DNA from: Dipylidium caninum | Taxonomy: Eukaryota; Platyhelminthes; Cestoda; Cyclophyllidea; Dipylidiidae | Direction: 5' to 3' | Assembly (NCBI GenBank): GCA_017562135.1 | Contig: QEYB01001642.1 | Location: forward strand, 930,001 to 994,000 | Length of the DNA stretch: 64,000 bases | Shown: positions 3,001 to 63,373 of the stretch, in pieces | How positions within the stretch are numbered: position 1 is the first letter of the stretch | How the letters are laid out: each line of letters begins with the position of its first letter | Position numbers and translations under genes: made by a program | The notes under the pieces: generated by a model | The model's input: the letters and a program-made list of their open reading frames with translations, nothing else | Told to the model about the DNA's origin: nothing | The model's database searches: none

Positions 3001-6000
3001 CTTACTCTCGCAATTCCGAAAGGTTTCTTTTATCCCGCACATGCGGCTATGAGAATACTTTGGGAGTGGTGTGCTTACGGCACCAAATGCCCTACGAAGT
3101 TTATTTCCTCTACGGAGCCGAGATCATTTTCGACCATAAACCTCGGCTTCACGGAGGCCTCCAAAGCCTCCCATTCGGGCATAAAAGGCGCCCTGCAATT
3201 GTGTCCGAACCCGACTTGTCCACTTGTCGGTTTGACAATCAAAGCGGAAATCTGTAATTATCGCGCGCTCGCGCTCGTGCGCACTGGTGGGAGGTGGCGG
3301 TGGGGCTGGGGGATGCAGTTTATGAACACAAGAGGCAGAGGCGACCACAAAAGCGCCTACCACAGGTGTGGAAGATGAGGAAGAAGAGGCCACAATCAGC
3401 CTGTCCTTTCAATTATGTCCTAGCGAAAAAGACGTTCGCTGACGCCTCAACCCCCCCCCCCCACACAGGCACCCCGGCGAGCGTCGGATGAAGGATGACC
3501 AGCTCTTCGGGGTGCTTGCTCACAGCCCGGAGACCGTAAACAATCGGGGTCGAGGCCTTAAACGCTACTGTCGACGCGTGGCAAACCAACTCTCCGAGAC
3601 CCTACTTGAACGAGATCAAAACAGGGGGAAGGAGGGGTGGTGGGGGAAGGGACGGATGCCAAACATGGGAACAACGGGTGTCGTACTGGCTTATCATTAC
3701 TTCTTTGTCAACACGAGGGAGCATACGCCTCCACTTATCGCGGGCGGCGGGGTGAGGCAAGATAGTGTTTGCGGGGTAAAGTGCTTTCAAGCGAGGAAGA
3801 CGGCGGTCGAAAGGTGTTTGAGATCCCCACATGTGGAGTTGCTCTCATAATGAAATGGGGAGGGTAGGCGTGGGCTTTGCGATTGCCTGTCTCCACCACC
3901 TCGGTGGGCAAAGGGGAGCTGTTTCAGTCGCCGCACTGCGACGGTGAGGGAGGAGCCACTCCCCTTGCGTGCGTCTTCCGGCTCCTCAGCTCAGACGAGG
4001 TGACCGCAGCAGGGGCTACTGTCAGGTGGGAAGGTCTGGCCCCGTCTCCTCCCTCTCGCTCCGGACGCGGGGCAGAGCTTTGCCCTCATCGTCCCCATCG
4101 GCCAACATCCGCCACCAAGGCCGACTCGTCGTCGAGGCGGTTATTAGCCCTGGCTCAGCGCTAGGATTAACTGAAATTCGGACAATTTGACATTTAGAGG
4201 AATTGCTTCCTCCCACGGAGAGGGCGTGGAGGGGGGCGTGTAAACTAACGACACAGGAGAATTCTAGGAGGGGACGGGGTGTTTGCCATCCCACCCGTTT
4301 GGTTGCTTCGCGTATCGTTTTCGCTCACTTTACTTCACTTTAAATTATGCCAAGCCACGTCTACGTTCTCCGCTGTTTTTAATCTAAATTCGTCGGCCAA
4401 AAAACAGAGCGCTGCGAACGAAAAAAATAGTTTAACCCTTGAAGGGTGCTCGTAGGAAACTCGATTATCTTGGGTAAAAAAATTGCACTCGAAGCCATTC
4501 ATGCCTTGCCGCGGTGTTATGTGGCGATAAGTTCGTCACCTAAGAGAAAAAAAGCTTGAGAGACGTTTTATTTCGTTCCACGGTGTGGCAGTCACGAAGT
4601 CTCCCAGGTTTTTGTTTACCCGGATAAGCGGCGCGCGCACGTTCTCAGCACGTGCCTCGGAGGCAACCCTTGTTGGGGAGGACGAAGGAACGAATGAAGC
4701 GCCTGACTGGAGGACGCAAACAGCAGGCGACGCCGACACGGAAGGTGAGTCTCGGCGACCCAGTGTTCCCTTAAGGATTGCTCCACCCGCTGAGAAGTTG
4801 CTGCCGCCTATCTCGCCTGCCAGAAGGGGCGTGGTGCCGGTGGGTCTTGTCTCTCGGACCGCTCAGTCGAAAGAAATAAGAACTGACTGTCGAGGGGTGC
4901 TGCACATCAATCGAGCACGTTGGCGGTGGCTGGTGCTTTTGGCGGAGCGTCTGGCGAAACGTCGTTGCGCGTAGCCTCCCACCGCGGAGGGCAACCCACC
5001 GCGGAGGGCAACCCACGCAGGCTGCCGTTCAGGTCGCGCTGCCCCTCCTCCGTCGTCCCCTCCGCCCACTTCCTCCCCCGGGTGTCACGCGCGCCAAAGC
5101 CTCGCGGGTGGAGAGGGCGAGCGAGTGTGGAGGACGCTCCTGTTCCCACAATCGAGAGTGACATCCTGCCTCGCTTATTCACCCCACCTTACCAACTGGT
5201 AACTATCCGGTAAGTGGACTCGCTAGCTGTTCGAAGAAGAGTAACGATGTCCCCGCACACCTCAACTGTCATCCGAACGTGCGTTTTGTCCACGTTGCTG
5301 GCCATCACCGGACCTGGGGCAATGGCTTCGGCACAAAAGTTACTTTCCTTGATAAACAAAACCCCAAAATAAAATGAAGTATGTTGACGCCCCTCTGGGA
5401 CCGGTTGATTTACGACCGATGGCATCGCAGTTCATTAGAGGAAGTGGTGATGGACGCAAAGCTCCTCTGCCGGGTGGAGAGGCAGAACATGGGATATACG
5501 GGCCGCGTGGATTAAGTTAATTAAAAATACTCCCCGGACGTCATAATTGCCTTACGCTTCGGAGACTTATTTCCATAATTAGAAGTGAAGTAGCAGAAAA
5601 GTTCGTTTAGCAACGTGTGCTCTGACGCCAACTACACCGTTTTCTCGTCCGCCGAACGGCGCACCCACTCAACGCCCACCGGGAATGAGCGCTGAGACCA
5701 CGGAAACACGCATTCTGGGGCTCCACGACGTCAAGACACGTGGATTTCAGCCCGCCTCCGCAGTCCCGTTCCCACGCCACTCCTTTCAGTAGCACAAGTG
5801 CTGTGCAATGCGGACGAGACGCTCATGAACAGTCCGGCCACACACCCGATCGGCGCTGCCGATTCCCTGGACCCGCCTCTTCCCTCCCGAAACTGGGAGA
5901 ATCCCGGAATAATGAAAGAAAGGTTTTCTGTCCCTAGAAAAGGCGGACACCCTCGATGGCAGTATGACGACGCCCTCGAACCCTGTCTGGGAACATTGAG

Positions 6001-6199
6001 GCGATCGGTGGAGAGAGTGAGGCAGTCTCGCGATGTTTGTGGTGTCCTCGGCCGGCAGCTGCCTCGTGGCCCCGCCCGGGGTTAGGGAGAAGTCAAGACC
6101 GCGAGAATTACTCGGATAGCGGTCGTAGAAGTTCATGACGCTTGCATAAATGCGTATGTACAAGGGGGGGGGGGGGGAGCGAAGCGGGGTGTCCTCGTG
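1..6199. other. GC-rich region without a confident gene
   Basis: This stretch follows the 3' end of the ZP-domain gene. It contains only short ORFs that overlap on both strands, as expected by chance at high GC. None matches a family I recognise. The one segment with exon-like edges is on the plus strand at 4592-4744, between a weak acceptor (TGGCAG) and a strong GTGAGT donor; it is treated as a finding only. A 17-base tandem duplication lies at 4978-5011 and a run of 12 C at 3451-3462. Confidence 0.5.
4978..5011. repeat. 17-base tandem duplication, two copies
   Basis: The unit CCCACCGCGGAGGGCAA occurs twice head to tail with no mismatch, followed by the start of a third copy (CCCAC). It lies in GC-rich non-coding sequence. 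I see no link to a gene. Confidence 0.85.
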
Positions 6200-7651
6200 T
6201 CACACATTCTGTTCGTCATTTAGGATGTTGCCAGAGGAGAATGAGAGCTCCCCGCTCGCAATCACATCCTCCGACTGGGTGAGGAATTTCATGGCGGCGA
6301 AGTGCTCGGCCGTGGTTGTGTCAGCTTCCGGCCGACCGGTGTTGGTCTTCGTGTAGACGCGCTGAAAAATCGCAGACTGCGTTGATGCGGTCTGCGAACT
6401 GCCTGAAGTCGTCTTTTGCACGACAAACTGCGTCGAAGGCGAGGCCTTTCCCTGGCCGCTGCCATTGTTGTTAGCCACCACCAAGCAGTCGTTGCCAGGG
6501 TTGTCGCCTTTTATGCCACTTGCCTCTCGAATACACAGGAATGGCGCGTATAGTCCCACGGAGCCGCGGGTCTCCGCCTCATACAGTTCGACGGGCTGCA
6601 GCTCAAAGTAATCCGTCTCGTTGACGGCGGTGGAGAAAGTCTTCTTGCCTCGCCCCCCACGCGAAACTGCCCACGAACCGGTCTCGGAAGTGGGCGTGCG
6701 CTTTGCGTCCGTGAAATTGCGGCACTTACTTTCTGCCGCCACTGTGTGTGTCGGGCTGAAGAGGCTGATCGCATTATTTGGACTGCGGATGAACGCGGTG
6801 CTCCTCGGCTGAGCCTTCGAGTAGGCGCCGGAGGTTACAGGGACCATGGGATTTCGCTGCACCGTGGGGTCGGGAAGCACCAGCGGTTGGAACGCCGAAG
6901 TTTGGTTGCTCCACTCCCGATTAGCGATCGACGAAGACCAGTTGACGTACTCGTAGGCGGTGGAATTGGGCTTATAAAAGAAATAGTCTGCTCTGTTATA
7001 AGGCTTGATAACTGAGGCTGGTTGTCGAAGTGCGCCCATACGGGAACAGCGGCACCCAAAAGTTGTAATCGACGCCTTCCAGCCTACCCAAGTTGCTGGT
7101 TTCGGAACGGTAGGAATTCAGAGGAGACGTTGGGGTACTTGACGCGGAAGCCACATTAGAATAGTGCGGGTCTGAGGCGTCTTCTTGCGTGTTGAGGCGC
7201 GATTAAGTGAATTTGCTTTCCACGCAGCAGAGGTGCCTAGCCTCGCCTCGGTGGGTGACCAAAGCACTGCGAGTCCGGATGCCACCTCTCCCGAATTGGT
7301 GGTCGTCAGTCTCGTCTGACATGGAGCCCTAAGTCAAGGACGTCACCAGGGCCAGGCAGTGGTTGAACGTCAGATAGGAGAAATCGCCTCGCTTCAGAAC
7401 TATAAAAAGCCTCGACTGGCCCCGAAATAATGCCTGACGATGATGGCCGCCGTCGCACAGTCGAAATTGTGGCGTGTTACGGTCTTGGGGACTCGACATC
7501 CTCTTAGAGAAGGCCTAATACCATTTTTCTACTTTTGCTACCTGATCGCCGTGCCTCCCACGACTTCTTCTCCCGCCACGTTAGGCGGCAGTTGGAAGGC
7601 CTCCCGGGGGGCTCCCCTCCTCTCCACCAGATGACCTCGAACGCAAACGTT
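6200..7651 (-). other. Tail-encoding exons of the ZP-domain gene
   Basis: Five inferred exons (7651-7542, 7399-7347, 7183-7088, 7011-6730, 6666-6200) encode about 335 residues after the membrane helix. The best supported are 7011-6730, which ends at a strong GTAAGT donor, and 6666-6200, which ends in TGA. The tail carries tyrosine motifs such as HYSNV, AYEYVNW and TDYFELQ; YVN fits the pYxN consensus bound by Grb2-type SH2 domains. It is low-complexity and Ser/Thr-rich near the end. The three upstream small exons are chosen mainly by phase agreement, and other frames there also look protein-like. If the stop at 7741 in the membrane-helix exon is used instead, these exons would belong to another isoform or gene. 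Confidence 0.5.
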
Positions 7652-10600
7652 CTGTGATGGGCTAGAGGCGGATCTCCCGCCACGCGGGACGGGGCGGAGG
7701 CGTGGGGAGGAGAGGAATAGGGGGGGGGTGGATTAAAGCATTAGGGGAAGCATGCCTTTTTGGTGGTGGCTGGGTCGTTGCGTCTGAGTTGATTCTGTCG
7801 CCTGAGGGCGAAGAGCGAGATGGTGAGCACCACGACGATGACGAGGGCGGTGATGACGGAGACGGAGACGAGTTGGGTGTGTGTGAGGCAGACGGCGTAC
7901 CTGCAGGGCCCCGCCCCATCGCCGTCGGACCTCTCTCTTCCCCGGGCGTTCAGCCGCAGATTGGCGTTCCCACTGCCGTGCATCCGTCCTGTTATCTGCG
8001 ATTCTGTCAAATGCAAGCGGTCACAAGTCTTAGGACACGCCCCCGCCTCTTCCCCACGTTGTGCCAAGCTGTGACAGACGAAACCGTTGCGAGGTTTACA
8101 TTATGTCAAAGGGTCACTTCACCAGCCTCGGCATTCTTCATGAACTGGAAGAAATTGCGCACCCAGCGGTTACCGTTAGAGCCAAAGTTTTTCCGCGATG
8201 TTGCCATGGCGGAGTAGGTGGTCCATCTTTGAGGCAAAGGCCTTTCGCTCTCAGAGACTTTTTAAGAAGGATGGAGTTCAGACGCCCTTTTCCCGTCTCC
8301 TTTGCAATGAGAGACGCATTCCTCACCGAAGCCGTCGTGATCAGCTCGGTCGGGCGTGATGAGTCCATGCGCCTAGCCGACCGCACACTGTCAAACGTAA
8401 CCGAAATTTGATGCTAGTCAGGAGGGTCGAAAATCGGCTCCACTATATTCCACGTAGACTTCTAACGAAGACGACTGTTGTGTTAATAGACGAGAGTGGA
8501 ATTTCACGACGGCTTCCTTCTCTCAGACGAGAAGGCGCTCGACAGAAAGGTAGATGTCGGCCAGCTCACCGGCCCCAAGCGATTTCTCCCGACGACGACA
8601 CCGTCGACTAAGATTTCTCGTCGCCTCGAATGCACGTGGCGGAGAGATTGACTAAGACCGGTGGCCCTTTTGGCGTGACCATATCCCAAACGGCTTTGCG
8701 CTGCACCCATCGCTTAATGGGGCGAAGTTGGTCAAGGGGCGACGCAAGGCCTAAAGTGAGTGGCTTTAACAAAGCAAACGCTCTCCCCTGATTCAGGGTG
8801 GAGTTCTCTGTGGACGCTTCTCTCCTCCATTGCCTTCTCGCCGCTCCAAATCAGCCCAGCCCACGCCACTAACCTTTTTGAGGAGGGACGATGTTGAGGT
8901 GGACCCACCGGTCGAAGAGGCGGTGCTTGGTGCTCCATTGTTTATTCCCTGCGTAGGTCTGGGCAGGATCGGTGCAGTCCACAATATCCTGAAAGTAAGC
9001 AATGATTCCGAACACCGTCGTGTTAAGCAAACGCGAAGTGGTCGTCTACACTCCCGCCTCAGGCGTCTAATACTTCGGCGACCTGCCCAACTAGCTGCCC
9101 CTGAGCGTGTGCAGGGGCAGGAGGGTTCCGGGCAAAAAGTCGCAACAGGGAGCGAAATGGCTTTATGAAGACAAGCTTTAGGCAGATGTTGAGCTCGACG
9201 CGGAAAGGGCGTTGCCTGGGAGGCGTGGCCGGGTTGGGGCGGCACTGCAGCACTTGCTTGTCAACCGAATCGGGGGCAGACCGCTAGGCAGGACTGCGAG
9301 CGCCCTTTGATGGGCGTCATCTCATGGACTTCTACACTCATACATTATGTTTGATTCGCGGTTAAGTAGGGGTAGACCGCGGATGCCAATCGGACGGCTA
9401 CCAGTGGCTGAGTTCTTCCACAAGCATCGCGGCGGGGAGGTGCAAGTCAACCAAACCCAGAGCAGATGTGCAATCTGATCTTGATGGACAGGGGACAGAA
9501 GGACGAAGTTTTAAAGCAGAGTTGGTTTACAAAAAAAGTCCATTTAAGGAAGCATAAAAGCGACAACCACTTTACTGGTGCGAGCGAACATTCAGTCACT
9601 CGGCCAGTCCTTCCGTCCGCCCGGCCGGCCAACCTGCCTGTTTGCACCGTAAATTAAAGCGAATGAAAAGTGGGGCAACTTGACTGAAATGTAGGCTGCT
9701 CCGGAAGTGGCCGTTTTCCCCTCACTAACTAATGGTGGTGTTCAGCGCTCATGCAAGTCACTTGAGACTCTCCCACCGTCCTCGCCGTGAATTCGAGGTG
9801 GGTGCGTCCATGCGTGGATTAGTAAGCGTTGGCGTAGACCTGCTGCTCCATGAAGAGGAGGCAGCGCTGCCAGAGCGACAGTTGGCGGAGAAGCAGCCCC
9901 GCCAGCTGCGGTGAGTCGACAATCAACGCGTGAACGTGGGCAGTGTCCGCGGGGACCGTCACTGCCTGCGACGTGGGCGACGAAACCGCGGGCGTAATTG
10001 CTTCCCCTTCCCGTGGGAGGCGGCGTTCGCTGCGGTGTGCGACGTGAATGTCTCGCCATGTCATTCCTGCCACTTTCACGCTGATCACAGGTTGACAGAC
10101 TGTCCAACCCCCTGGGGCGGTAGTGGAACGTTAATAACAAAATTCACGTAGTTAATGGGAAGCTGACAGGAGAGCGCGTGGCCACCCTGAAATGCTGGTC
10201 CCGCACGAAGGGCAGCGGGGACTAAGTGACCGCCAAATGCTCCTTTGATTTGGCCGAAATGCCGAGCTGATGTGGCAGGAGACAAGAACTGCTTCCCGTC
10301 ATGCGCGGAGGCTCTTTTCCCACGGCGGCGAATGTGTGAGGGACAACGTCATCCTCGCCACCAAAATATTCTGATTTTCAGCAAAAAACCCTCTAAAATT
10401 AAAAACTGGGTACATCTGTCCTCTCTCGAGACCGCTTTTCGGTATAGGGAGGTTTGGCTCTGACGGTAGCCGATGTTTCGTCGACGTGTGAAGTTGCGTC
10501 CCCCGTTTTTTCCCGGCTCTCTTTCCGCAGCCACTAGTCTGCCCCTCGCCGCCCGTCAGTGTATCGCACTTTCAGCCCGCGAAATGGCCGCCACTTGCTT

Positions 10601-13600
10601 TCATTCTCCCAAGCAGGTATTCGCGGTCGGGGAGCCTCAGCTGCAGACGGGCGGGGCAGCAGGCGTGCGACCTCATCGGTTGCTCCATCTCCTCTTCCCG
10701 CCTGCAGCCGGCAGCTTGAAGGGTTGTGGGGTTAGAAGGGCCTTCCCCCCTGACATCCACAATGAAGACGTCTCAGACCGCGTCCTCCGCATTTCCCTTG
10801 CCAAGGAGAAGATTAAAACGAGCCTCTTCAGCCTCTCCGCTTAGAATAATGAGTCGACGAGGACGCGCCTCGCCTCGCGGAGACGGTGCATTTAGCTTAT
10901 CCACCGGTAGACAGCCGACGACTCACAGCAGAGCAAAGAGTGGACTGAGGGCAGTACTTGACGAAGCAGCGGATGAAGAGGGAGTTGAAGTTCTCGATTC
11001 GGAAGACCGGGAAAGGCGATGTCTGCAGTTGTCGTCCCGAGAGGTGAGACTGCTCAAACTGCACTCTGTAGGCGTCGGTATTCGTTGTACAACTAAAATA
11101 AGCAACAGGACGCATCACCTCTTGCCAACTCGCCCACTTCCCCGAAGGGAAGGCAGGCCGAAGCATTCAGTGTTTGCGCGGTTCTACTGTCAGAGGGAGT
11201 TTTAGATTGCAACCAGGGAGTGGGCGCCGTCGAGCATAGAATGAAGCACCGACTGGTTGTGCGACACGGTGTTCACCGCCAGACGTGCTGACGGGACCAT
11301 CGCAGGCTGTGGGCCGAGCGCATTATGGGGGCCCACGCAACACAGGACCTTCTTAGCTTGCGCCAACTACCTTGTGGGGTTTTCGGGCAGACAGAAGCGG
11401 AGAAAAAGACGGCATGTTTGGAAAGTTGCCACGTACCCTGCTGCGTAGATGGGGAAGCCAGAGTAGACTGAAGGAGGCAAGAATTGTGCTCCGGTGATGG
11501 AAACGAAACAACTTTCCACTGCGAGGGAACCTTGTCCTGAAAGGGGAATTGCGTTCTGCCAGTTAGAGTGCCTCACCGACGGCTTGGGTTTAAGTCGAAA
11601 CGCCCCTAAAGACTCTGGGCCACTCAGCCCCGCCGTGCGTTCGCCCACACCTCCCCACTGACTTCAACGACCACGAGTCGATGGCGCCTTGAAAACCACT
11701 TGTAGATTGGAATGCACAGGCGGCCAGGGACACGAGAGTGGCGTCAGCGAGGCCCGGCGCCAACCTGTCCTGGTCGCGGGGTTGGTGGCGTCGGGCGAGG
11801 CGGGGTCTTGTGCCCTCTAGGGAGCCTCGTCGTTAGCCCACACCGGAGGGGGGGCGGTCCTCCTCTCCCCAGTGCAGAACTTCCGGAGAGTCGTCAGCGC
11901 GCACCGCCCCCATCGCGAGCCCCTCTGCAGGTGGCCAAGTCGTGCTGTGGACCGGTGGGAGGAGCAGAAGGGTGCCTGAGGCTTGCCCACCGCAGCCCAT
12001 CATTCCTACCCATTAACTCCGGCCGCGACGCCGTTTTTCGTCATCACAGGCGACCGAGGTCTTGCCGAACAACACGAAATACGTCTGGGCGGAAACGCAA
12101 TGAATGTGTGCTGTTTTTCTCGTCAGGGGATATCATGAAGGCAAAGTATTCCTCGGCTTCTATGCATCCAACAAAGTAAATTGCATTAACCGCCACATTT
12201 TACGCCCGGGTTTTGCCCGTCCTGGGCCATGGTAAAATGCGCTGGTAAACGTGTGACCTTTTGCGAAGAAGACTATGAAGATCTTGCCGGGGGGCGGAGC
12301 GGGAAGAGATGATGGGCTGGATAAAAACTCTGCAGCAGCTGCAGCATGACCGCATTTTACCTGGCGAAGAGGAACTTCCCACTTGGCATCTTCGTGCTCG
12401 CGGGGCACTTTTCCCGCCGCCAGTTCCCCTCTCGGCCACGCACGTTGTCGAGGCATCTGGAGTCTCTGCAACTCGACTTTCCCTTTCGGGTGACCAGTGA
12501 AACATCGGGGGCGGGGTGATTTTGCTGCCCCTGCCCCGCAGTCACCTTCCCAGCCTCCCAGAGCTGCGCTTCGAGGATCGAGGAAAGGCGTGCATGGACG
12601 GTGGGAAACACTCACCACTGACATTGTCGGCGAGGAGGCTGAACCGCAGCGAAATGTTTTCGCCCTCCACCACTTGCTCTACCTCCTGTTGATTTTCGTT
12701 CACAATTGCCATGGTAACGTTGGCCTTGAATTGCTTAAGTTGGCTGCGGATGGAAAAAAGAGATAATCACACGTGCAGGGGGTGGGGAGCGGAGATCGAG
12801 GGATGAAAAGTGTGAGAGAGAGAAAATAGGTAACAGAAGTCTGTTGGTGCGTACACCTTATCCCAGAACAAATGTCTGATTCCCTAACCCTCAGACATCC
12901 ACGCCGTTCTCCTCTGCCATCGTCCACCGTTGTCCTCCGCGCTGTGCGGAGACGACAGCCACTTTCGGCCTGTCGCCGCTGGCAGAGGCGTACGATGGGA
13001 CACGAAACACACGCGACGTGTGTGTGACAATCAGTCGCCTAACCCGTCAGAAGTTATCTACAACTGTCACACGCCTGCCACACTTCCCCGGGCTCTTGGT
13101 GGCTCTGCTCACGGGACGGGGGTGCGCCGCGACAGACACTTACAAAATCTCCTCACGGCGTTCTCTCGCAAGCTTGTGGTCGATGCAGGAGAAGGTGAGG
13201 CGCAAGTCCCTCGCCGGGCTGATGGGAGCGTCCTCCGCCTCGACCTCTACAACGCCCTGGTACTTGGCCCTGCCTCCCTACAAGAGCAAAGCCAAAATTC
13301 GTCGGAGGAGCAAGCACGATGGGTCTCCTGCCTGTAGTTTTGCTCGCGTCTCAGTGGACACGAGGGAGGACTCCATGCCACCGCCGAACTGTGATGAGAG
13401 AGGCGCTTACACCCAACGGTTTTCCGGGGCTGAAATCGATGGGGGATGAGTGCAAGAAAGCGCGGTAACGCTTAAAGTGGGACGCGCTTATTTCAGACCC
13501 TACTTCCCAGCGTCATGACGTGGCAGAATCGAAATAGGCGGTAACCTCGGCAGGGGAGGACTCCGAAAACAGAGAAAACCACGTCTGGAGGGGGGCGGGC

Positions 13601-16600
13601 GATCAAACACACCCCCGCCAGGGATTCGCGACGCCCTCGACAGGAATCCAGACGACGATGTCGCGACAGAGGAGAGTCGCCTCCCCGCCTCTGCCTTTAA
13701 TACCTAACAGTATTCACCAAGTGAATCTCTGCCCTCATTTTGTTAGTAGTAAATCGGTTCCCTCGGCCAATGTCGCCTTCCTCCTGCCGACAGGACACCG
13801 AACCGAGCTCTGACTTACCCCCATTTTGTACACGCGGACACCGCAATCGGCAGGAAGGTCGTTGATAAGGTCGACCTGAGTGCAGTAAAGCGAATTCAGT
13901 GTGACATTTTTGGTGGCGGGGCTGTGGGCAGAAAGTCTGTTCATCATGGTTCTCCAGAGTTCTGCAACGTCGACGGGGGAAGGGGAGGGACTGTCGTAGT
14001 CGCGACCGCGTTCCTCGAAGGGGACTGCCTTCCTGAGGCGACACACACTGGCCGGAGCTGCGGTTGCTGAGGCTGCCTCGAGACGCGCCTCCGCCAGCCC
14101 CGCTTCCATGCGACTCGCCAAGTCTTCGTAGGGTGCCTCCCAGTGCGGCACGTAGCAGACCAGCAGATAAGCGTTCTCGCAGACGGCCTGAACTGAAATG
14201 CAGCAACTTTTGGCACTCAACTCGAAAACGTTCGTGTCTACTCACGGCGCGCCGACTACACGTCTTCGTTGCACGCGTCTTCAGTCCTACCACGAGTCAC
14301 AGCCGAAAGAATTGCTTACAGTCAACTTCAACGCTTGCGCTCTGAGAACAACTGAAAAGTCCTGCGCACGCGTCCGCGCCTCATGTAGGACAGCCGTCCG
14401 CGCCAAGGACCAGCTGAGTCGGCCGGCATGGGGCGTTGGCGCAAGGTTCTGCGGGAACCCTCAGATGCGCAGACGTCGGCGGGTGCACTGATGGACACTC
14501 GCCGACTCGCTCTGAAGTGCGCGAGGTGGTGTGGGGCGCAGACCGCGTGCGTTCAGAGAAAGAGCCGCGTCCTCTCGGCGGACGGAGTTGGCGCGACCAA
14601 CCCTCCGCTGGGCAATGCCACTTTCCCCCTCCTTCGCACCTCGCCACGGTTGCGGAGAAGCACGAGTGAAAGTTCAAATTCGCAATTAAAAAGGAGCCCA
14701 GTTTGTGGACATTTTCAGTGGGAAGACCTCGCTTCCCGCCCCATTGGCTACAAGTCCGCTCTAAACCCGGAAATTTTCAGGCCAGGACCACGTCAGGCTG
14801 CGTTCAAGCAGCGCCTCCGCCATCCTCGACAACCTGCAGCTTAGAGGTGACGACGTTAACTCAGACGTTTGGCATCGATGTCTGCGTTAGTCAAGCACTT
14901 TATCTGGGCTACCACGACTCCTTCCCCCCGTGTGTCCATGGTAACGGGAGCAGCCGCCCCCCTTCAAAAGAGAGTGGAGTCATACCATGTCGAAATCTGC
15001 AGACTCCGCCGCCTCCGCCTCCGCCACTGACGTCGGATGCGTGAGAGTGGGACCGGTCGAGGGGGCACTTGCAGTCAACGCGAGTTTCGGTCAGGCGGTA
15101 GCACTCGCCACCGTTCCGGATGCACTGGTGGCACGACTTCTCCTGCAGACTCAACTTGGGAACTGCAAAGAGACACAGTGAGACTGTCCACCGGACTACA
15201 ACGAGGGTAATCTTTGCTCCCGTCACACCTACAGCACTCGAAGTAGCGAAGGAGTTTCTGGAAAACGGGGATATACTCCGGCGAACAGGCGCACGTGCCG
15301 AAGCCGACGGCGGCGTGGCGGCTCGCGTCTGGTCGCGGAGTCTCCTCCAGAAGATGGCAGTTTGCGAGTGGGGAACGACAGAGCAAATCCTCACCGTTGC
15401 ACAAATCTCCGACATCAACTGAATCATAGAAAAACAAGAGTTGGGACTCACCAGCGCCTCGGCCACATTGATGGGGGAAAGTTTCGGGGCTAGGCGTAAA
15501 AGTTAATTTGCTCGAGAGAGAGCTTAACTCTCCCCCGGGGTCCCCACGCTACCGGCCCTTCGTCAGGCCAAAACACTTCAGTCACCTCGGCCTGACGAAC
15601 CGCCTGCAGCTGCCTCAGCGCGCGTCTGGAGGCGGTGCACGTGAGGCTCAAAGCTCCCTCGTCAGTGCGTCGCCTCTTCGGGCTGAGCAGGGCTTGACAG
15701 GTGGCAGGGAGTGGGTGTCGACAGGGCACTCATGGCCCTACTGGAGGCGCCGGAGCTGGTATTTTACTTCTTGCAATCACCGCCTCTCCTCGCAGCAGGC
15801 GTCTCTGCACTGTTGCATGAGTGAAGAGGTGGTGTGGGAGAAAGCACCGCTTGGACTGCGCCCTTCTTTTGCCCTCCACGTCCAAATGTGCATCAGGAGA
15901 CGCATGTCCGTTCCCCTCCAGACGATCACCAGCCGAGCGTGGAGGCTGGTCCACCCGCGATGTTCCCTTTGGGGGTATAGTGCTGCAGTACCACCCGTTG
16001 CCTTTCTCCCCCATGGGCAGCCCAATCCCGGCTGCTCATCTCCTTAGGCTGCGAAGCAGCCTCGGTTGGCCAAATCTCCACGACCAGCCCCTCGGCACGG
16101 ACTCCTTCGCCACCGTTATTTCATAGTGTATGAAGAACTGTCGAATGTGGTCGTGGTTAGGAGGATAAAACCTGTAAAGTTTTGCGAGCCTGGCAGAAGA
16201 GAAGTCAAGAAGAGCCGCTTACCCAGCTGCGCCCCGCAGGTCCGCTGGGGTCGTGATGGGTCGCGGAAGTGCGTATTCGTCCGTAGGTTGGTACACACGC
16301 AGCCATACCACTCGAATTGTCTGGGAATGCAGAGCAAAAACATGCACAGGACGGGGTCGGGAGGTTGCTTCCAGGGGGAATAAAGGGGAGATGAAGTCAT
16401 AGCCGAATGGCCAAAGGCGCACTCACGGTGCTCCCTCGGCGGGGCGGTTGTCGCTCTTCTCGAAGGCGAAACAGCTGCCGCCCTCCTGCAGACACGAGGC
16501 ACAAGTTAGACTCTTCCGGTCGAACAGTTTCTTCCCTGAAACGAATTACAACTTCTCTGTAGTCGAAATTCCTTCAATGAAGACCTTCGCTTTGCCACAC

Positions 16601-19600
16601 TAGCACTCGTCAGGAGCCCATGGACCGCGTGGTGCAGCAGCGCTTTACTGCTGCACTTCGGCGGTCCCAACCGGTTGTCAGCGTCAAACGCGTGATGAAG
16701 AGCTACCACTTTGGGGGCGGGGGACGGGTGACTTACTGCAGGCGTTCAGCTGAGGCACGAAGACCGTGTTGCCGGGGCAGGTGCAGAAGCCGGCGCCAGG
16801 ATGGCAGCTGCTCCGATTCACGTGCACGCAGTCCGCGTCCACCCGACATCGTAGGTCTGTGAGCACTAAATTATGAAACGTGGACGCACGGAATTCTGAG
16901 CGATCACTGCCGAAAAAGGCTTCTGCCCATCCTTTTGTCCCGCTATTTTTCCATGTGCTCTGCAATAATTCACCCGCTTTCACTGCGACGGTGACAGAGT
17001 GCCTTGGTCGGCTCCGTCGGGTCTGGCCTAACTCCGGTCGAGAGTGCCCAAATTAATCTGCGACAGCGCACGCCATAGCCAAGTGATGCGAGCTCCTCCG
17101 GTGCGAGCGCCTCCGCTCCTCGCGGACAGGTCGGACGCGGGGGCCGCGGAGACCCGAGGCAAGCAGGCTGGCGCGGAGGGACCGCGCCGAGAGAAGTGGC
17201 CATTCTTCGTCTTCGAGAGAGGCTCTGGGCTTCAGGTGCCTCCTGCACAGGCAAACTGTCGCCTTCGTACGTAGGGCAAATACTCAGCGTCACATTGGGA
17301 TTTTGCCGACTCTTTTGTCTCCAGACTATTTCAGCGCAGCTTTCTCGACTCTACTTCGCTCAGTCAGGCAAGCAAGGATGTCTGTGACCTTTGACTTAAC
17401 TCACTGTGACCTTTGACTTAACTCACTGCTACAGATAAGCATCTTTTGTCGCCCCCTGCTAGTGTCAGAATTTTTGTCAAGCGCCAAAGCCTCAACACCC
17501 TTTCGCCCACCGCACGCCGCTCGTGGACCCGGTTCACTTAACTTTGTCAGCCTTGGCTCCCGTGCGCAAGATTAACCCACAAAGCTGTGGACAACTTGGC
17601 TCTGGTAATTAAAGTCTACCATAAATAAAGAATGCGCCCGTCGGCGGGAGAGGATCGCGGGCCAGACGTAGCGCTCATCCGTGAGCATCGCATCTTACGT
17701 GTCCATCAACGCGAACTCGCTTGTCTCGAGACGGGCTAGCGACGATAATTACAGCCCTTGGCATGAGGTCGCTTCGACCGCCCGTCGAGAGCGATGGAGA
17801 GAGATTCGCTACCATCCGGAAGTGTACAGGCAAGGGATGGTCGTTGGGACTTTCTCTTGGATAAACCTCGGTGAAGGGGTCGGCGCGTTCTACGGCACGG
17901 GGACTCTACTCAGACTAATCGTGTTTGACACAGAGTAGAGATAGAGCAAAGCACAACTAACGTGTTTTGCAGACCACTTTGTCTCCCTCTTTGACAGCTA
18001 CGAAGCCTTTGCGGCAGAAGCACTCGTTTTTCGCCCTGTTGCATACGGAGTTGCGGACAATTCGGTCACAGAAGTTGGGCGACTCCTTGTTGCAGGCGCC
18101 TGCAAAAACCAAGTGCTCGTCACTGGCGGTGCTCAGAGCGGGAAAGAATAGATGGAAGAGGAGGAGGAGGAGGAAGAAGAGGTGGAGGCAGAGGTGGAGA
18201 GATGCGCTCGCCACCACCGGCACGAAAGGCGGCCCCATCGCACTCCGCTCAGCGCACCACCGAACAGCCTTGCCTTCACCCGTCCCAAGGAATGCTGCTC
18301 TTCGACCGTTCTGCCATTGGTCGCCAGCCCATTGGCCGGGCGCAACCGCCAAATCAGGGTTGAGAAATTGGTCACTCGCTTGAGTTACAGTAGCACGTGG
18401 GAATTTTAAACTCAAGGACATTTCTTTTGCGCCACACAGGTCCTCCTGATGAGTGTGGCTTGACCCGAGACTTAAATGAAGATCGCATGCACTATTCACT
18501 TCGGCCACCCGGTGGCGACAGTACCCAGTCGCGGGGTACCGTGTCGGGGAAGCCGCATGGAGGCACTCGCTGCCTCAGCGCACGAGACTCAGACCACGCG
18601 GCCACATACCGCGATTGTAATCTCAAATGTCGTAAGCGTAGGCGACCGAGGATGGCGTCTTTCCCGACTCAGGGAAGGTTTTGCAGTGCGCCACACGGCT
18701 GAACAACAATGCTCGAGTAGTAGGCTTTCCCGTGCCAAACTTGAGTGGACTTCGTGGGGGCGACCAGAGATTGCTCTTTCACTCGCGAAGGTGCCGTCAA
18801 CTTGTTTCCGAGGCACAAGCAAGACGTTTTTGTTTGAGCACGTGGTCCCGGGTCCCGAGCCAAGGCTTCCCCCCAGGCCGCGGGGATTGCTCTTCTGAGT
18901 GGATTCCTCGCCTCTGAGTTGAGTGGGATCAAATTACTGGCCACAGGAGCGAACCTTCTGCACAACTGTGTGAGTCTAAGAGGGACAATTTTTTATAAAA
19001 ACCTTGCTGACGCCTGAGAGTCGAGCGATAGAAATTGTCTTTCCTCAAGGCCAAATCTACTGGATTTGCTTCCGTCTACTTGGGGCTTTGAGTAGGTATA
19101 GTTTCGCCTGCAAAAAACGGACTGACAGAGGAAAGGCGCTGCCCCGACCTCCTCCGAGCTGGTCCCGAGATGCGACACTTCGAGGGGGGGGGGGGGGAGG
19201 CCACCACCCTCTTCAGCTGCGTTACCCTCCTCCCTACTTGCCTCCGTTTCAAGGCACTGTCGAGAGCAGCTTAAAAAAAGCTTGACTTGATAGGTTTTTG
19301 TAACATTTCACATTGGAATCCCAGGAAATATTCTAAATTCAATGATCTGGGGCTCCTCAGACCGCCGGTGAAAATGTGACGCAGCCCAAGGATTGGGTTT
19401 GGGGGGAGGGGGAAGGCAGAATGGGGCATTTGCTACCGCCTTCCATCACTTTAAGTCTCCGTCGATAAGGCAAACGTGTGCGGCGGGGTGGAGCAGCACG
19501 AAAGTAGGGGCTCGCGGTAAGCCCGACAACCCAGGAATTCTGGTTCCGTGCGTCTTAGAAATGTTTTGGCCACTAGCCGACAAAGCAGAATCCTTAAGCT

Positions 19601-19809
19601 TACTTGAGTTAGGCGGATGCGGAACAGGGAAGCCGAGGTGGCCTATTGTGTCAGCGGAGGCGCAAATGACTTCGGGCGTGCACGGCATGGGTTATCAGGG
19701 GGTACGTACCGATGCCCAGGTTCTGACCCTTCTGGACACTCGTCGTCACGTCGGACAAGGCAGAGCAGAGGGAGGCGGTCAGGAACACCGCCACGATCGA
19801 CGCGACCAT
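6200..19809 (-). CDS. ZP-domain type I transmembrane protein with EB/EGF-like modules
   Basis: Predicted 23-exon gene, 1264 residues. Exons, 5' to 3': 19809-19710, 18099-17962, 16856-16737, 16535-16427, 16320-16223, 15418-15233, 15162-15032, 14187-13819, 13277-13144, 12743-12616, 11536-11437, 11092-10927, 10162-10089, 10029-9840, 9283-9083 (or 9173), 8988-8874, 8257-8123, 8048-7756, 7651-7542, 7399-7347, 7183-7088, 7011-6730, 6666-6200. Order: signal peptide (residues 1-19), cysteine-rich modules (about 34-294), ZP domain (about 295-593), stalk, membrane helix (about 891-913), tail ending in TGA. ZP proteins usually polymerise in extracellular matrices after cleavage near the membrane; that role is inferred here. 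Junction phases all agree and the total length is a multiple of three. Weak points: the GC-AG intron after 7756, the end of the 9283 exon, and the junction between 15032 and 14187, where a small extra exon near 14.4 kb is possible. No ortholog or gene name recognised. GC-rich third codon positions contrast with the genes beyond 39 kb. Confidence 0.72.
7756..8048 (-). other. Membrane-helix exon of the ZP-domain gene
   Basis: The exon encodes a juxtamembrane segment with four cysteines (CPKTC ... PCRYAVC), then an uninterrupted hydrophobic stretch of about 22 residues (VSVSVITALVIVVVLTISLF), then RRQNQLRR. The positive-inside charge fits a type I single-pass protein. The reading frame stays open to a TAA at 7741. 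There is no GT donor between the helix and that stop, so either the protein ends there with a tail of about 25 residues, or a GC donor after AAAAAG (GCATGC, at 7755-7754) joins it to the exon at 7651. The second option restores phase with all downstream exons. Confidence 0.6.
10927..14187 (-). other. ZP (zona pellucida) domain exons
   Basis: Five exons (14187-13819, 13277-13144, 12743-12616, 11536-11437, 11092-10927) spell a ZP domain. In the ZP-N half: AVCENAYLLVCYV, then LYCTQVDL, the hallmark DLPADCGVRVYKMG, and LRLTFSCID. In the ZP-C half: ENISLRFSLL, AVESCFVSI, the typical GC motif in FPIYAAGCTTNTD, and the closing PVFRIENFNSLFIRCFVKYC. The GC motif appears only when 11437 is spliced directly to 11092 (phase 2 to 2), which supports that junction. 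Conserved ZP cysteines are present. This is the strongest family assignment in the GC-rich half. Confidence 0.85.
15032..18099 (-). other. Cysteine-rich EB/EGF-like module exons
   Basis: Six small exons encode repeated cysteine patterns after the signal peptide, for example ACNKESPNFCDR with NECFCRKGF, LRCRVDADCVHV with GFCTCPGN, TCASCLQEGGSC, DLCNGEDLLCRS with FGTCACSPEY, and CIRNGGECYR with VDCKCP. Spacing of the C-x-C pairs resembles invertebrate EB modules and EGF-like domains. Most junctions are phase 1, as usual for shuffled extracellular modules. The last EGF-like module lacks its final cysteine in this model; a candidate small exon near 14.4 kb (EPCANAPC ... DGC) could supply it, but its donor is poor. 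Confidence 0.65.
17382..17425. promoter_or_regulatory. Tandem 22-base repeat with nuclear-receptor DR1-like sites
   Basis: The unit CTGTGACCTTTGACTTAACT plus CA occurs twice, head to tail, without mismatch. Each copy contains TGACCTTTGACTT; its reverse complement AAGTCAAAGGTCA is close to the direct-repeat-1 element (two AGGTCA-like half sites spaced by one base) bound by HNF4, RXR or COUP-type receptors. It lies in an intron of the ZP-domain gene. Function as an enhancer is inference; the duplication is seen directly. Confidence 0.5.
19710..19809 (-). other. Signal-peptide exon of the ZP-domain gene
   Basis: The ATG at 19809-19807 opens MVASIVAVFLTASLCSALS, a good cleavable signal peptide, and continues to a GTACGT donor in phase 1. 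The next exon (acceptor TTTTTGCAG, first base 18099) enters in phase 1, giving NLGIGACNKESPNFC. Two bases before the ATG is a strong acceptor, ATTTTTCAG, so the 5' leader is either cis-spliced from an upstream non-coding exon or is a spliced-leader acceptor. An apparent second signal peptide starting at 18238 is rejected because it is the translated polypyrimidine tract of this intron. Confidence 0.7.
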
Positions 19810-20478
19810 GACTGAAAAATGGCAGGTAATAGGCATTTTAGGCATTCCATTTTACGTCCCAACGATTAACGTGGCTCTCTTAGGCGGGCGACATCATCGC
19901 CGCCAGCGGGTCGCCGCTCACGGGCGCTCGCGAGGCCGCAGTCGTCCGCTGGGCCCCCAAATGAGTTGGAGCGCTGAGTCGCCTGTGCGGGCTCCTCACC
20001 CTCCACCACCTTTACTTCGTGCTAAGAGGTGTGACCGCCAGTTGTCTGCAGCCTCAGTTTCGCTCGTCCTCTCCGCCTCACCCCAGACAATGTGGGCGTT
20101 GTTGAGAGGAGCCTCCGCCCAAATCGTTGAGGCTAGGTGCTGCGAGTTAAAGAACTCGCAGAGTTCCTAACCACCTGCGCATAAGTGACTGTTTAAGGAG
20201 GCGAAGTGGGGCGATTCTCAGTCCAAGTCTTATCGCATTTCATTCCTGAAACCCATTGTGACATGTCACTTATCTCAACGGAAGTGTCTAACACTCCCGC
20301 ATCCAATTAATAAACCCATTCCTGGTTTTAAAGACTGCCCAAGGAGATGTTGTCGGTAGGTGAAGATCAACCAGCAGCTTCGGGGACGAGTTTATTACGC
20401 CTAAGTAGTGTGGACTCGAGGAGAACCGCCCAACTCCCTAGTGTGGATGAGACTTTCTTGCTTAATCTGGTCACTTGT

Positions 20479-48100: not shown

Positions 48101-51100
48101 AACACATTCGACGCATAAAGAGTATTTCAACACCTGAAAAACAATCTAAACATACTTGTGGCTCTTACCAATCGTCCCTCATTCTCCAAAGCCACCAAAA
48201 GGGGCATGTATCATGGAATCTAAGTTAAATACAAGGCTTACCCTAAGGAAATTGATCTTTTTTGGCCAAACTTAAGGTACAACTGGAAAAGTTAAGGCCT
48301 AATTCAAAAATACGGTTTTCAAATCGTCATGATGCGAATAACGCGGTAAAGTAGTTTCTTCCTGATGAGATATCAACAGGATATCACCGGGAAAAAAAGT
48401 CGGCTTAATGCTAAAACAGAGGAGAAACTGTTCAAATCCGCGAAACTTAATACTTCGGGGTACGAGAGAGTTGGTTCTGCCTAAATAAAAAGCTCACGGT
48501 CGCCACACTCATGTCAAATTCATTTGCGCACCTGTACCCAAGGTGTGAAGGCTGACCTTTCAACGAGGGCCGGTTAGTCTGCTCTCAATTCATCGCAGGT
48601 GAGAAGATTGGCGTTTACTATTTCAAAGTGGAGATAACTCACTGCAGTTTCTACCCTAACGGCAAAGAGTGGAAAAGATTTACTGGTCGCCTCCGGACTT
48701 TCTCCAAATCTTACTCTGTCTATAAAACCAACTTGCAACGAATACGCCTAATTACGTTCGCGCCGTCCGCTAAAAGCCGAAAGCATACCACAAACTTACC
48801 TTATAATGCAGGGCAGAGTTTACTCTACTTTTACTTTCACTATTCGTTAGTAACGATACGATTCACTCAAATGCCACGTCTATTTCTAATAAGATCACTT
48901 ACACCGGGTTGGTGTGTGACGGCAAAGCAATGATCCCCGCCAGTGAACACGCCCACAACAGTAGTATAATCCGTATTGACCGAGGGAGATGGGGAAGATT
49001 CACGCGAAAGCCAGGGGCCTTCCAAGAAAATCAAAAATAACAGTTATTATTCAATGTTAGTGAAAAAACTGGATGTCTGAGGGTAGAGGAACACCAAATA
49101 CGATTGAATTAAATAGTATGCAACAAAGGAGGATCATATTAAATTTAGACTATCTAAACGCATTGAAAATTTGAAAATTCCGCGCATTGCAATGGCTAAA
49201 AGAGAGGTTAGGTATATTGTCACACCTTTGACGGTTAGAGGCAAGAAAGCGCGCTGGCAGTCAGGCTGACCGAGTTGGCCATCGACTCCGCAGCCGAAGA
49301 CGAGGGGGCGCGGCCGGGGAGGCGACGAGGTGGGATTGACGACGAGGACCATAGTGTGGCGTCGACCGCACCACACCTGCACGCATACATCGCCCATCAA
49401 CTCCATCACTTGTTGCGGCTGTCCTGTCGCCAATGCTGAGGGACCGTGGCCCAACTGACCGAACCTGAATTTTTGTGGCGCCAGTAAGCCCGCTATCCGT
49501 GGTCAAAATTATCAAGAATTCTGTTGAACCAACCAAATACCACTCACCTTCTTCTCCTCCTCAACAAACCGGATTGTTTTCAATCATAAACTAATTAAGC
49601 CCATGCTGTCGAAGTCGAGTATGTCCCAACCGAGGGGAAACCTTAGATATTTAAGAAGTCGTACACTAGAATTGTCCATCACATTTTCATACTATCTGCT
49701 GGAGATAGTTTGCATACTTTTTTACTTAGCTTTATGCTTTTTGAATTGGCAGCAGTAATGAGTCCACAGGAACCCTTAAAGTCTCATTGAGTGCAAGAAG
49801 CATTTTTAATAATGACTATCATCATTGCCTCAAACTCACACAGAAGGCAGCATTGAAAATCATTTTACTATATTGGCAGATAAAAAGGCGTTCGAGAGGT
49901 AGCACAAATTTAGGAAGTCTAACAGCATTTAAAGCCATGATAAGTGATCATAAAAAGGGAGGAGGAGGAATGAGAAGACGAGAGGAATAGTCGATGGGTG
50001 AAGAAAAACGGCCTTGTGGAAAGCATTGTCCATTATGCCACACTCTCATTCACTGCAATTTGCTTCTCAATGACAAGGCAGGTTTTAAGAAAGTAAATAG
50101 TGCTTTAAGCAGCAAGAGATCTCTTAACTACAAAAAGTGAGATCTAAGAAAGAGTATTCATGAAACACAATAGAAGATCACCCTTTCAGTTCAGAATATT
50201 TCTAAAAAAACTCGGCCAACCGTCTTAATAGTAAAGTGAGTACAAATAGTGATTATAATAGAAATGGTCTCTAGCGCTGTTAATTTGGAATAGTGAGACA
50301 AAACACACCTTCCATCGCCAAAAGTGAGGACAGCTCCATCTTTAGTGAGAAGGGCTGAATGCGCTTCGCCACAGGCGGCGAAGGTGACGCCACGGCGTTT
50401 CATACTTTTGAGAAGTCGAGGAGTAGGCTCGTTGGCGGAGATAAATTTGACACTTTTTTCCCAAGTGTTGGTCTTCTTGCGAGAGTTCTTTCGAGAGTCA
50501 CGCGGTATGAGGGGGCGGGTTTCTACCTCGCCTAGGCCCAATTGGCCCCGCGAGTTTGAACCCCATGCATAAACGGAGCCGCTAGGTGTGACGATGAGGT
50601 TGTGGTTTGCTCCCGCCACGATCTGACGTACCGGCAATGCTGAGAGACATTCCACCAGCTGTGGAGTTGCTACCGGGCTAGATGAACAGTATCCCAGGCC
50701 TAACTGACCCTGGTTGTTTGAACCCCAGGTGTATATCACCGAGGCCTCTGTCAATGCTATTGTGTGTTCTAGTCCCAGACTTATCTGAGCAAGAGAACCA
50801 ATATACGGTTAAATGAATAATTAAAGCATCATTTTCTCATCACTACCACAAAGCGATTTAAAAAATTAAGAAAGTAAACAATTGACAGATGTCGAAACAT
50901 CTGATATGAGCAACGCATTAGTAAATTGGGACTTAGAGTGTATAAAGCTAATAGCATCATCAAGTAGTGTTTACAAAATATTAATCATGTTGTCATTGAC
51001 AAACAAGTGTAGTAAATAACTATAAATATGTGAATACATTAACGCTCCAAACTAGTGTATTAAGGAAATAGGAAGAAGACAGTGAAATATAAACGCATAA

Positions 51101-52872
51101 AGCATAAATGTCACTTAAAGAAAAGATTATGAGTGTAACACCAGGTAAATCAGCCAACGACAATGGTGACACCATACCACACCCATGTGAGTCGCTTATC
51201 AGGAGTACATAGGTACAAATGATCCGAACTTAAGTAAGGCCTTATATCGGAATTCGACCATTACAAATATTATATTTTTATGGGATACCAAAGTAAAAAA
51301 AATCCTAGCCTTGTTGGAAAAAAATCAAATGCATAGTTATGACTGTAAGGACAAATTGGAATCTATGTCAGAGAGAATATTAATGAAACGAGCGCGTAGT
51401 GAAATGCCAAAAGTTGATTGGATGAATGAACTTGTAGCCTATTGTGTGACCCACTTGAATAACAGGTCCATGGTCGAAATCGAGTCGGCACACGCGATTA
51501 TTGTCCAAGTCGTCACGACCCAATTGGTAGTTCGTGTTGCAACCCCACATGTAGACATGGCCACCGATTGTTATAGCAGCGCTATGATATGGGCCTGCTG
51601 CAATATCCCTGACTCGCTCGTCTATGCCTGACACCTAATATAATCATGATCAGAGGTTATATTTTTATAACATTATAACGGTGGTGGTGCGTAGAAACAA
51701 AAAAAGGAATGATTAAAAATGACAAAAAGTCCGTGGTGGTATCATTTGTACTATTTCAGTGTAATCACTTAATGCCGTGTTCTTTGAGCGGTAAGCAGTC
51801 AAATTCACTCAAGAAAAGTAGCGTTCGGTCTGATGAAATATCATTAGCCTTCACCCTAGAACCGTCTAAAGTGAGACTACAAGTAATTCGCTCTCCCCGC
51901 CCACAAGGTAGCCAAATCAGAGCATGGAGACTAGAACTTCAAATGATCAATTCAGGTACTATACCACAATGAAGTTCGAAGTGGTTTTCGCAATGATTTG
52001 CCCAGAATAAATAATTATAAATAATAATGAATCATCAGTGCCCCGTCCATTAGATCCCAAAAATAATAGTGGAACCCGCAAAAGGTCAATCCATTATATT
52101 TGAATAACAGAATTAGAATTTTTGTAAACTACGAGGCAACTGTGCACAATGAGCTGCGGCGATGACATTCAAAAGCGTTTATTCGCCTCTACTCTATATA
52201 TGCGTGTTCAAGTTTATAAACACCCGAATACATACGAAACGAAGTCAGTAAACCAAGAGTAAAGGGTATGAACTTAGGGTGAGGAAGTAGACCCGTTGGC
52301 TGAGTGCCAAAAACCAAAGGTTAAATGAAGAATTTAGTCACGAATTATATTTTATGTAAGTTGATTGAACATCAGCAATTTGTTGACGTTTAGGTCGCAA
52401 GCTCAAAGAAACGAATAATTAATTAAACATGACGTTATTCTGTAAGGCCAGATCATTATACCCGAGTTCATCTTGACATAAGGCTAAATTTTGCTGTCAA
52501 AAACATTAGTGAGTGATGAATTACTATAATCAACACAAATAATAGTTTATATGGCATAAATTCCAAAAAAAATAGGGACAAATAAGAAAATGAACCTGAA
52601 AGTCGAAGGCTGACCTGATCAAATGCATCAGAGTTACCAGAGTGCCCGAGTTGACCAAACTCATTGGAGCCAGAACTATACACGACGCCCTCGGAATCAA
52701 GGACAAGGGTGTGCTGATATCCGCAAGCCAATTTGACTAAATGTTTGACTACACCCAACGGCGGCCATTTGACGGCAGTGGGTTGGGATACCTGAACGGT
52801 GCGATCGGAACAGGAAATCGGACCTAACTGCCCTTCTTCACTCGATCCCCAACCATATAAAGTGTTCGACAT
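39103..52872 (-). CDS. HERC4: HERC4-like E3 ubiquitin-protein ligase (RCC1-like + HECT)
   Basis: Eighteen exons, 1173 residues: 52872-52615, 51634-51455, 50784-50309, 49464-49226, 49018-48903, 47587-47217, 45265-44868, 44020-43971, 43880-43821, 43593-43534, 43467-43348, 42486-42253, 41831-41784, 41714-41619, 41157-40924, 40459-40241, 39853-39647, 39258-39103. All phases agree. Residues 1 to about 423 form an RCC1-like propeller with seven GQLG-type blade motifs (such as GWGSSEEGQLG, AWGSNSRGQLG). The C-terminal HECT domain (about 840-1173) includes FTGEEAIDDGGV, EFFILIMRELL, DRIPIAGLPG and AHTCYNIL, whose cysteine (about 1141) accepts ubiquitin before transfer to lysine on substrates. Family members act in the cytosol. 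The length resembles vertebrate HERC4 (about 1,050) plus insertions, including a basic insert in blade region exon 50784-50309. The ATG follows an in-frame TAG. The least certain splice is the 47217 donor (GTTCGT). HERC4 rather than HERC3 is a best guess. Confidence 0.95.
43017..43029. repeat. Run of 13 G
   Basis: Uninterrupted G homopolymer in a HERC4 intron, on the plus strand, surrounded by G/A-rich sequence. Confidence 0.9.
43919..43934. repeat. GA microsatellite
   Basis: Perfect short GA repeat in the intron between the small HERC4 exons at 43880-43821 and 44020-43971. Read on the gene strand it is a TC tract. Confidence 0.9.
46192..46846 (-). mobile_element. Degenerate mariner-type transposase fragment
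   Basis: Two minus-strand reading frames (46846-46523 and 46503-46192), separated by a stop and frame change, keep mariner signatures: WVPHEL, SLLARNKIEPFLNR, then MLHHDNGRPHAAL, TRQKIAEVDWEIL, HLPYSSD and HHLF. Mariner transposases move DNA by a D,D34D active site. Here the first aspartate region reads VIEEEKSW instead of the usual DEKW context, and the third position, 34 residues after the HDN aspartate, is glutamate. The N-terminal DNA-binding helices are missing upstream, and no terminal inverted repeats were found. The copy is therefore dead. It lies in the HERC4 intron between 47217 and 45265, in the same orientation as the gene. Confidence 0.88.
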
Positions 52873-63276: not shown

Positions 63277-63373
63277 CTGGGTGCCAAATAGGAGATGACA
63301 ATTACAATCTGATGTCACTGCTGCTGCAACATTCCGACGCGCTTTCGCATCCATTCCAAACCCTCACCGCCAG

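Follow-up and report, generated by a model that had tools for sequence, protein, structure and literature searches.

A predicted ZP-module surface protein with two candidate leaders in the tapeworm Dipylidium caninum

The window analyzed here is a 64,000-nucleotide stretch of the genome of the tapeworm Dipylidium caninum (contig QEYB01001642.1, positions 930,001 to 994,000), whose minus strand carries, between 18238 and 6200, a gene predicted to have 14 exons, which encode 1003 residues in consistent phases. From its amino terminus the protein comprises a signal peptide, five six-cysteine modules, predicted ZP-N and ZP-C modules, a juxtamembrane C-x4-C, a membrane helix and a tail. We consider it probable, although well short of certain, that this is a single-pass surface protein that is retained in the membrane and serves as a ligand-binding or adhesion receptor, without being shed as a fibre subunit. 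The direct basis for this reading comprises the exon matches and their phases, the conservation across cestodes and trematodes, the conserved cysteines, and the lack of any furin-type motif ahead of the helix.

The gene model was started by hand from clean splice sites on the minus strand and later corrected by ortholog alignment. When the whole genome (106 Mb in 920 contigs) was searched with tblastn, the Echinococcus multilocularis protein P0001 matched all 14 exons at this place (E 1.6e-91 to 2.4e-6), which bears out an earlier sequence-only reading of the window that had proposed a minus-strand multi-exon gene with a secretory leader, cysteine-rich modules, a helix and a long tail; its 23 exons and 1264 residues were corrected to the present figures. 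Of the introns, 12 have GT-AG borders, and the one that separates the helix exon from the tail exon is GC-AG. Exons 1 and 2 were matched by 25 of 27 homologs, exons 5, 6 and 7 by 20-22, exon 11 by 12, exon 8 by 8, and exons 3, 4, 9, 10, 12, 13 and 14 by only 4-7 each; beyond these 14 exons and an exon at 19809, described below, the 27 homolog queries matched no segment of the 64-kb window at E<=0.01.

The earlier reading also included a stalk of unknown domains at 10162-8123, which did not survive, other exons near 10162-9000 or 8226-8123 being without support. Within 10926-8004, the only ortholog-supported exon is 8988-8874 (about 38 residues): the orthologs read ..TLCSA/ENLDCANPAE.. and ..VHLNIVPSQK/.., corresponding to exon 11 followed by this exon and then by exon 13. 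Further exon candidates in the same interval reached coding scores of 7.1 and 7.6 at best, slightly above the peaks of other introns (about 4-6), and are absent from the orthologs. A preliminary exon 2 bounded at 16856, nine bases short of the present one, and two small preliminary tail exons (7328-7286 and 7171-7088) were likewise dropped after ortholog alignment. None of six common polyadenylation signal hexamers is present in the 800 bases past the stop codon (5400-6199, minus strand).

Three protein searches, which returned 5, 26 and 22 matches, yielded 27 distinct homologs, all of them flukes or tapeworms by record name, in keeping with the lineage restriction suggested earlier; remote relatives may exist elsewhere, because each search scored just about 8000 word-sharing candidates. 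The five proteins of the first search are all cestode (E. multilocularis, Anoplocephala, Taenia crassiceps, Hydatigera and Rodentolepis). P0001, titled 'Endoglin CD105 antigen', and the cestode records titled 'ZP domain-containing protein' represent the same gene, as the 14 of 14 exon matches to P0001 indicate, and these titles are database names only. The window protein and P0001 are 94% identical over modules 1-2, 75% over modules 3-5, 67% over the ZP part, 76% at the helix and 59% over the tail, with the linker (53%) and the signal (45%) less alike; conservation is highest in modules 1-2, at 92-94% identity to three cestode orthologs. The Mesocestoides corti protein P0008 differs clearly from the window protein. 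Trematode relatives (P0009, P0011-P0018) share the five six-cysteine modules, the ZP part, C-x4-C-L, helix and long tail in their full-length records, whereas their linker and tail sequences differ. The trematode record P0017 ends at the ZP part, and the Schistosoma mansoni record P0023 (Smp_167790) is without module 5 and is ended after the ZP part by a short hydrophobic stretch. Literature searches, judged from their listings, turned up no study of this gene; the review PMC13361971 presents flatworm ZP proteins as predictions, without functional work, and a 2021 S. mansoni paper gives by name a rhythmic 'ZP domain-containing protein', Smp_244190.

The presence of ZP-N and ZP-C is predicted on the strength of the orthologs and of a relative's fold, and not from Pfam. 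Analysis of the predicted fold of relative P0017 with Foldseek gave 18 PDB matches at E<=0.001, all of them ZP modules; the closest folds are those of polymerising ZP proteins (uromodulin and ZP3), with uromodulin best. In the homolog alignment, the cysteines of the ZP-N region (P0017 positions 345, 353, 449, 461 and 500) are each kept in 23-27 of 24-27 rows and those of the ZP-C region in 15-18 of 16-18, and the Pfam ZP profile exceeded its cut-off in one of the 17 homologs scanned (P0004, 29.6 against 24.6). Several results weigh against the assignment. The sequence-only reading had made a ZP hit in a profile search its own touchstone; Pfam returned none on the window protein, in either the preliminary or the final model, the sole row at E<=10 being PSI_integrin (E 3.2 and 2.9). 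The ZP profile was weak in P0005 (13.2 bits) and gave nothing in 15 of the 17 homologs, some of which are truncated before ZP-C. The whole-chain Foldseek fit was poor (template modelling score 0.11-0.19 by query and root-mean-square deviation 10-48 Å for the ZP rows at E<=0.001), indicating that the domains fit singly and not as a whole, and ZP-C was modelled at a predicted local distance difference test score of just 43-76. PDB sequence searches gave no ZP match, and a viral fold library no match at E<=0.001. The ZP domain claimed earlier is thus upheld by homology and by the relative's fold, not by a Pfam match on the window protein. Of the EB/EGF-like modules proposed with it, the homolog alignment confirms five six-cysteine modules at the protein front but not their EB identity: the best Pfam EB (PF01683) score was 13.7 bits on P0010, below the cut-off of 24.3, and neither the window protein nor the other 16 of the 17 homologs scanned gave an EB row.

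The tail begins at 6970 and is predicted to comprise 256 residues (748-1003), long as had been claimed, although not the 335 or so residues then estimated. The GC donor AAAAAG/gcatgc would join 7756 to 6970, and without this splice the frame stops after KKACFP (7741-7743). Since this donor is the sole junction, the locus could be split into two genes, a membrane protein ending at KKACFP and a separate exon set containing the 6970-6200 frame. We regard such a division as very improbable: the cestode homolog records number nine, five of which extend as far as KK, and each of these, gene predictions though they are, goes on to the same tail within a single protein, while Hydatigera P0004 reads KK-Ala-Arg here, consistent with read-through of the same GC donor. 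P0002 reads KKQN, and in P0004 about ten additional residues come before the tail. The window tail is 54-61% identical to those of the five cestode records, and its ending, NILNDEQNV, is identical in P0001, P0002 and P0005, with KILSDEQNV in P0004 and an earlier end in P0003. Other motifs of exon 14 are YEYVNW, which in cestodes resembles what we take to be a Grb2-type SH2 site, FIRSPNNA, FELQP and GLYAPFLCIRE. Estimated with a 19-residue helix, the tails of the model and of those homologs that extend to the helix (15 of 27) are 152-402 residues long.

According to PMC7665627, a furin site usually lies after ZP-C, and in the traditional model cutting frees ZP-N to polymerise; the protein studied in that paper assembles through ZP-C, endoglin and betaglycan are listed as non-polymerising, and a second conserved aromatic of ZP-N follows Cys4. 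Among the model and the 15 homologs reaching the helix, a furin-type RX[KR]R occurs in none of the 16 within the 110 residues before the helix, and C-x4-C-[LF] stands just before the helix in all 16. At the presumed place of this aromatic, the two positions following Cys4, none is present in any of the 23 rows retaining Cys4, in an alignment limited to this family. Together, the lack of the usual cut site, the predicted retention and the long inner tail favor a receptor over a loose, egg-coat-like fibre.

A matrix-forming protein nevertheless has to be weighed, in which a non-furin protease would cut the ectodomain and the product would polymerise into an apical coat of the tegument, ducts, or egg or embryo envelopes, the tail only guiding sorting. 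ZP proteins can be cut at sites other than furin-type ones, and this counts against the retained receptor, as do an RXXR before the helix in two of the 16 proteins (P0014 and P0027), the F-strand tyrosine, an aromatic associated with polymerising ZP-N domains, kept in 22 of 24 rows and leaning towards a polymer, a tail that is hardly alignable between cestodes and trematodes, and the loss of YEYVNW in Anoplocephala. The polymerising nature of the closest folds also speaks for a matrix former, and many ZP proteins are apical matrix parts (PMC7665627 and PMC13361971). The missing furin-type motif and Cys4-adjacent aromatic speak against it, and a conserved tail of 256 residues exceeds the presumed need for sorting. 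We therefore judge a matrix former unlikely, albeit a serious competitor; the mixed furin and aromatic result leans towards a retained receptor and does not prove it. Of the 'surface or matrix protein' proposed from the sequence, the receptor-like ZP protein is kept, and the matrix protein becomes less likely because no furin-type site precedes the helix.

A further candidate is a flatworm ortholog of endoglin (CD105) or betaglycan, that is, a TGF-beta family co-receptor. The window protein resembles them in its predicted ZP module, in its helix, predicted to be retained, and in its lack of a furin-type site; both are non-polymerising according to PMC7665627. Endoglin and betaglycan are without a five-module front, and the likeness seen here is limited to the ZP part. 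Their tails are short. The front of the window protein consists of five six-cysteine modules, and PDB sequence searches, in which the front was neither folded nor searched alone, gave no endoglin match. Orthology is accordingly improbable in our view; we read the mode of action as resembling that of endoglin, without claiming endoglin identity. Uromodulin, although the best fold match of P0017 and likewise bearing EGF-type modules before its ZP domain, is anchored by glycosylphosphatidylinositol, cut and polymerised, whereas the window protein has a helix and a tail. Mollusc EGFZP shell-matrix proteins also combine EGF-like modules with a ZP domain (PMC13361971), but they are matrix proteins; the comparison here covered the combination of domains only. 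In the preferred receptor, the ectodomain would bind a ligand, a neighboring cell or matrix, ZP-C together with the juxtamembrane C-x4-C would hold a dimer, and the tail would then dock signalling or scaffold proteins.

The window DNA carries two leaders, termed H and Q (Table 1). The H pattern, H[LV][VS][FYA]xG before the first module cysteine, occurs in 11 of the 27 homolog records and the Q pattern, QKx[QE]NLx[IV]G, in 10; the remaining six have neither, as P0004, P0005 and P0007 begin at internal positions and the N-termini of P0017, P0025 and P0026 fit neither pattern. Several records come from close relatives (seven of the 10 Q records are schistosomes and two H records are Opisthorchis viverrini), so the counts are not independent events. 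Each leader occurs in both cestodes and trematodes, and in a presumed second schistosome gene copy S. bovis P0024 has H and S. rodhaini P0027 has Q. The H leader matches E. multilocularis, Taenia solium and Anoplocephala, while counterparts of the Q leader are QKGQNLAVG in M. corti P0008 (first 60 residues against the 19809 exon, tblastn E 0.004), QKAQNLAVG in Sparganum P0010 and QKTENLAIG in schistosomes. The Q-leader acceptor, TTTTTGCAG/GC, sits inside the H-leader coding sequence (..LVFAG). In the T. crassiceps record P0003, the H leader adjoins a sequence corresponding to the 19809 exon translated in a different frame (E 7e-4, 57% over 23 residues), and this genome very likely has both leaders.

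The 19809-19710 exon looks real as one of two alternative leaders. The first exon of the sequence-only reading thus stands as an alternative, weak by score; as a sole start it was rejected, and the second leader, inside exon 18238-17962, matches orthologs. Both leaders would be used within one species, as judged from the DNA, each record giving one form; the Q form would have, by arithmetic, 990 residues. The exon may instead be read in the other frame, as in the T. crassiceps record, but ten records from both classes show the QKxQNLxxG frame; equally, HLVFAG may be merely a translated splice acceptor, but both classes retain [DN][DE]HL at a place where one would expect a run of pyrimidines. 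A strong splice acceptor, TTTTTCAG/TC, lies at 19810-19823, two bases before the Q-leader ATG, which may mean that the Q leader is trans-spliced or preceded by a non-coding exon. With two first exons that each supply a signal peptide, two promoters could drive nearly the same mature receptor.

The tblastn search with P0001 also identified two further places on contig C817, where a second, diverged gene copy (about 490890-501736, minus strand) retains module 1, module 2, module 4 and the start of ZP-N. This copy has an H-like leader (MMLLLLLSALLRFVSWLHGAWADEFHVVAAG/PC), and no Q-type leader pattern was found between it and position 510000.

Table 1. Predicted exons of the D. caninum gene, in window positions.
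Feature	Positions	Strand	Support and remarks
Alternative first coding exon, Q leader (MVASIV..VQKGQNLGIG)	19710..19809	-	phase 1 out, donor GTACGT; acceptor would be 18100/18099
Exon 1, H leader (MGPPFV..SDEHLVFAG) and Cys module 1 (C49-C90)	17962..18238	-	matches P0001, P0002, P0006
Exon 2, Cys module 2 (C99-C135)	16737..16865	-	P0001 tblastn match
Exon 3, first half of Cys module 3	16427..16535	-	P0001 tblastn match
Exon 4, second half of Cys module 3	16223..16320	-	P0001 tblastn match
Exon 5, Cys module 4	15233..15418	-	P0001 tblastn match
Exon 6, Cys module 5	14986..15162	-	P0001 tblastn match
Exon 7, predicted ZP-N, first part (VCENAYLLVCY..)	13819..14192	-	P0001 tblastn match; relative's fold
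Exon 8, predicted ZP-N, end (F-strand Tyr, Cys4)	13144..13277	-	P0001 tblastn match; homolog alignment
Exon 9, predicted ZP-C, start	12616..12743	-	P0001 tblastn match
Exon 10, predicted ZP-C	11437..11536	-	P0001 tblastn match
Exon 11, predicted ZP-C core with C-x4-C-x5-C (RCFVKYCPQSTLC)	10927..11092	-	P0001 tblastn match
Exon 12, ..DC.. and last conserved strand-like stretch (RWVHLNIV)	8874..8988	-	P0001 tblastn match; 115 bases
Exon 13, variable linker, C-x4-C-L, helix (19-residue core 712-730), basic stop-transfer	7756..8003	-	GC donor; P0001 match
Exon 14, cytoplasmic tail 748-1003, stop TGA	6200..6970	-	P0001 match, E 1.6e-91

Elsewhere in the window, RCC1-repeat exons lie at 49137-52887 on the minus strand (Pfam RCC1 2.3e-27, 9.1e-15 and 2.8e-12), and a PDZ domain, presumably like that of Dishevelled, at 62989-63363 on the same strand (Pfam 9e-19). 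Rfam and transfer RNA scans of the window found nothing. In 2-kb steps, G+C content falls near 36 kb from 0.53-0.60 (1-36000) to 0.38-0.48 (36000-64000), the flanking 10-kb stretches having 0.47 and 0.43 and other genome samples 0.39-0.53; the shift reflects either an isochore-like block or an assembly join.

More tentatively, and with less confidence than in the receptor itself, we propose that flukes and tapeworms may possess a ZP receptor class of their own, which would have five modules, escape cutting, form a dimer and bear a signalling tail, with two promoters whose separate signal-peptide exons persist in cestodes, in trematodes and in a second copy of the gene, the acceptor of one leader lying inside the coding sequence of the other. 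The corrected model also points to probable errors in two database gene models at these same places, the T. crassiceps record at the leader and the Hydatigera record at the GC-AG intron. The apparent dual leader makes promoter choice addressable with public RNA sequencing data. Parasitic flukes and tapeworms are the only groups in which the family was found; its ectodomain is conserved, as is its tail among tapeworms, and it would, if the reading is true, represent a surface receptor specific to a lineage whose worms live against host tissue.
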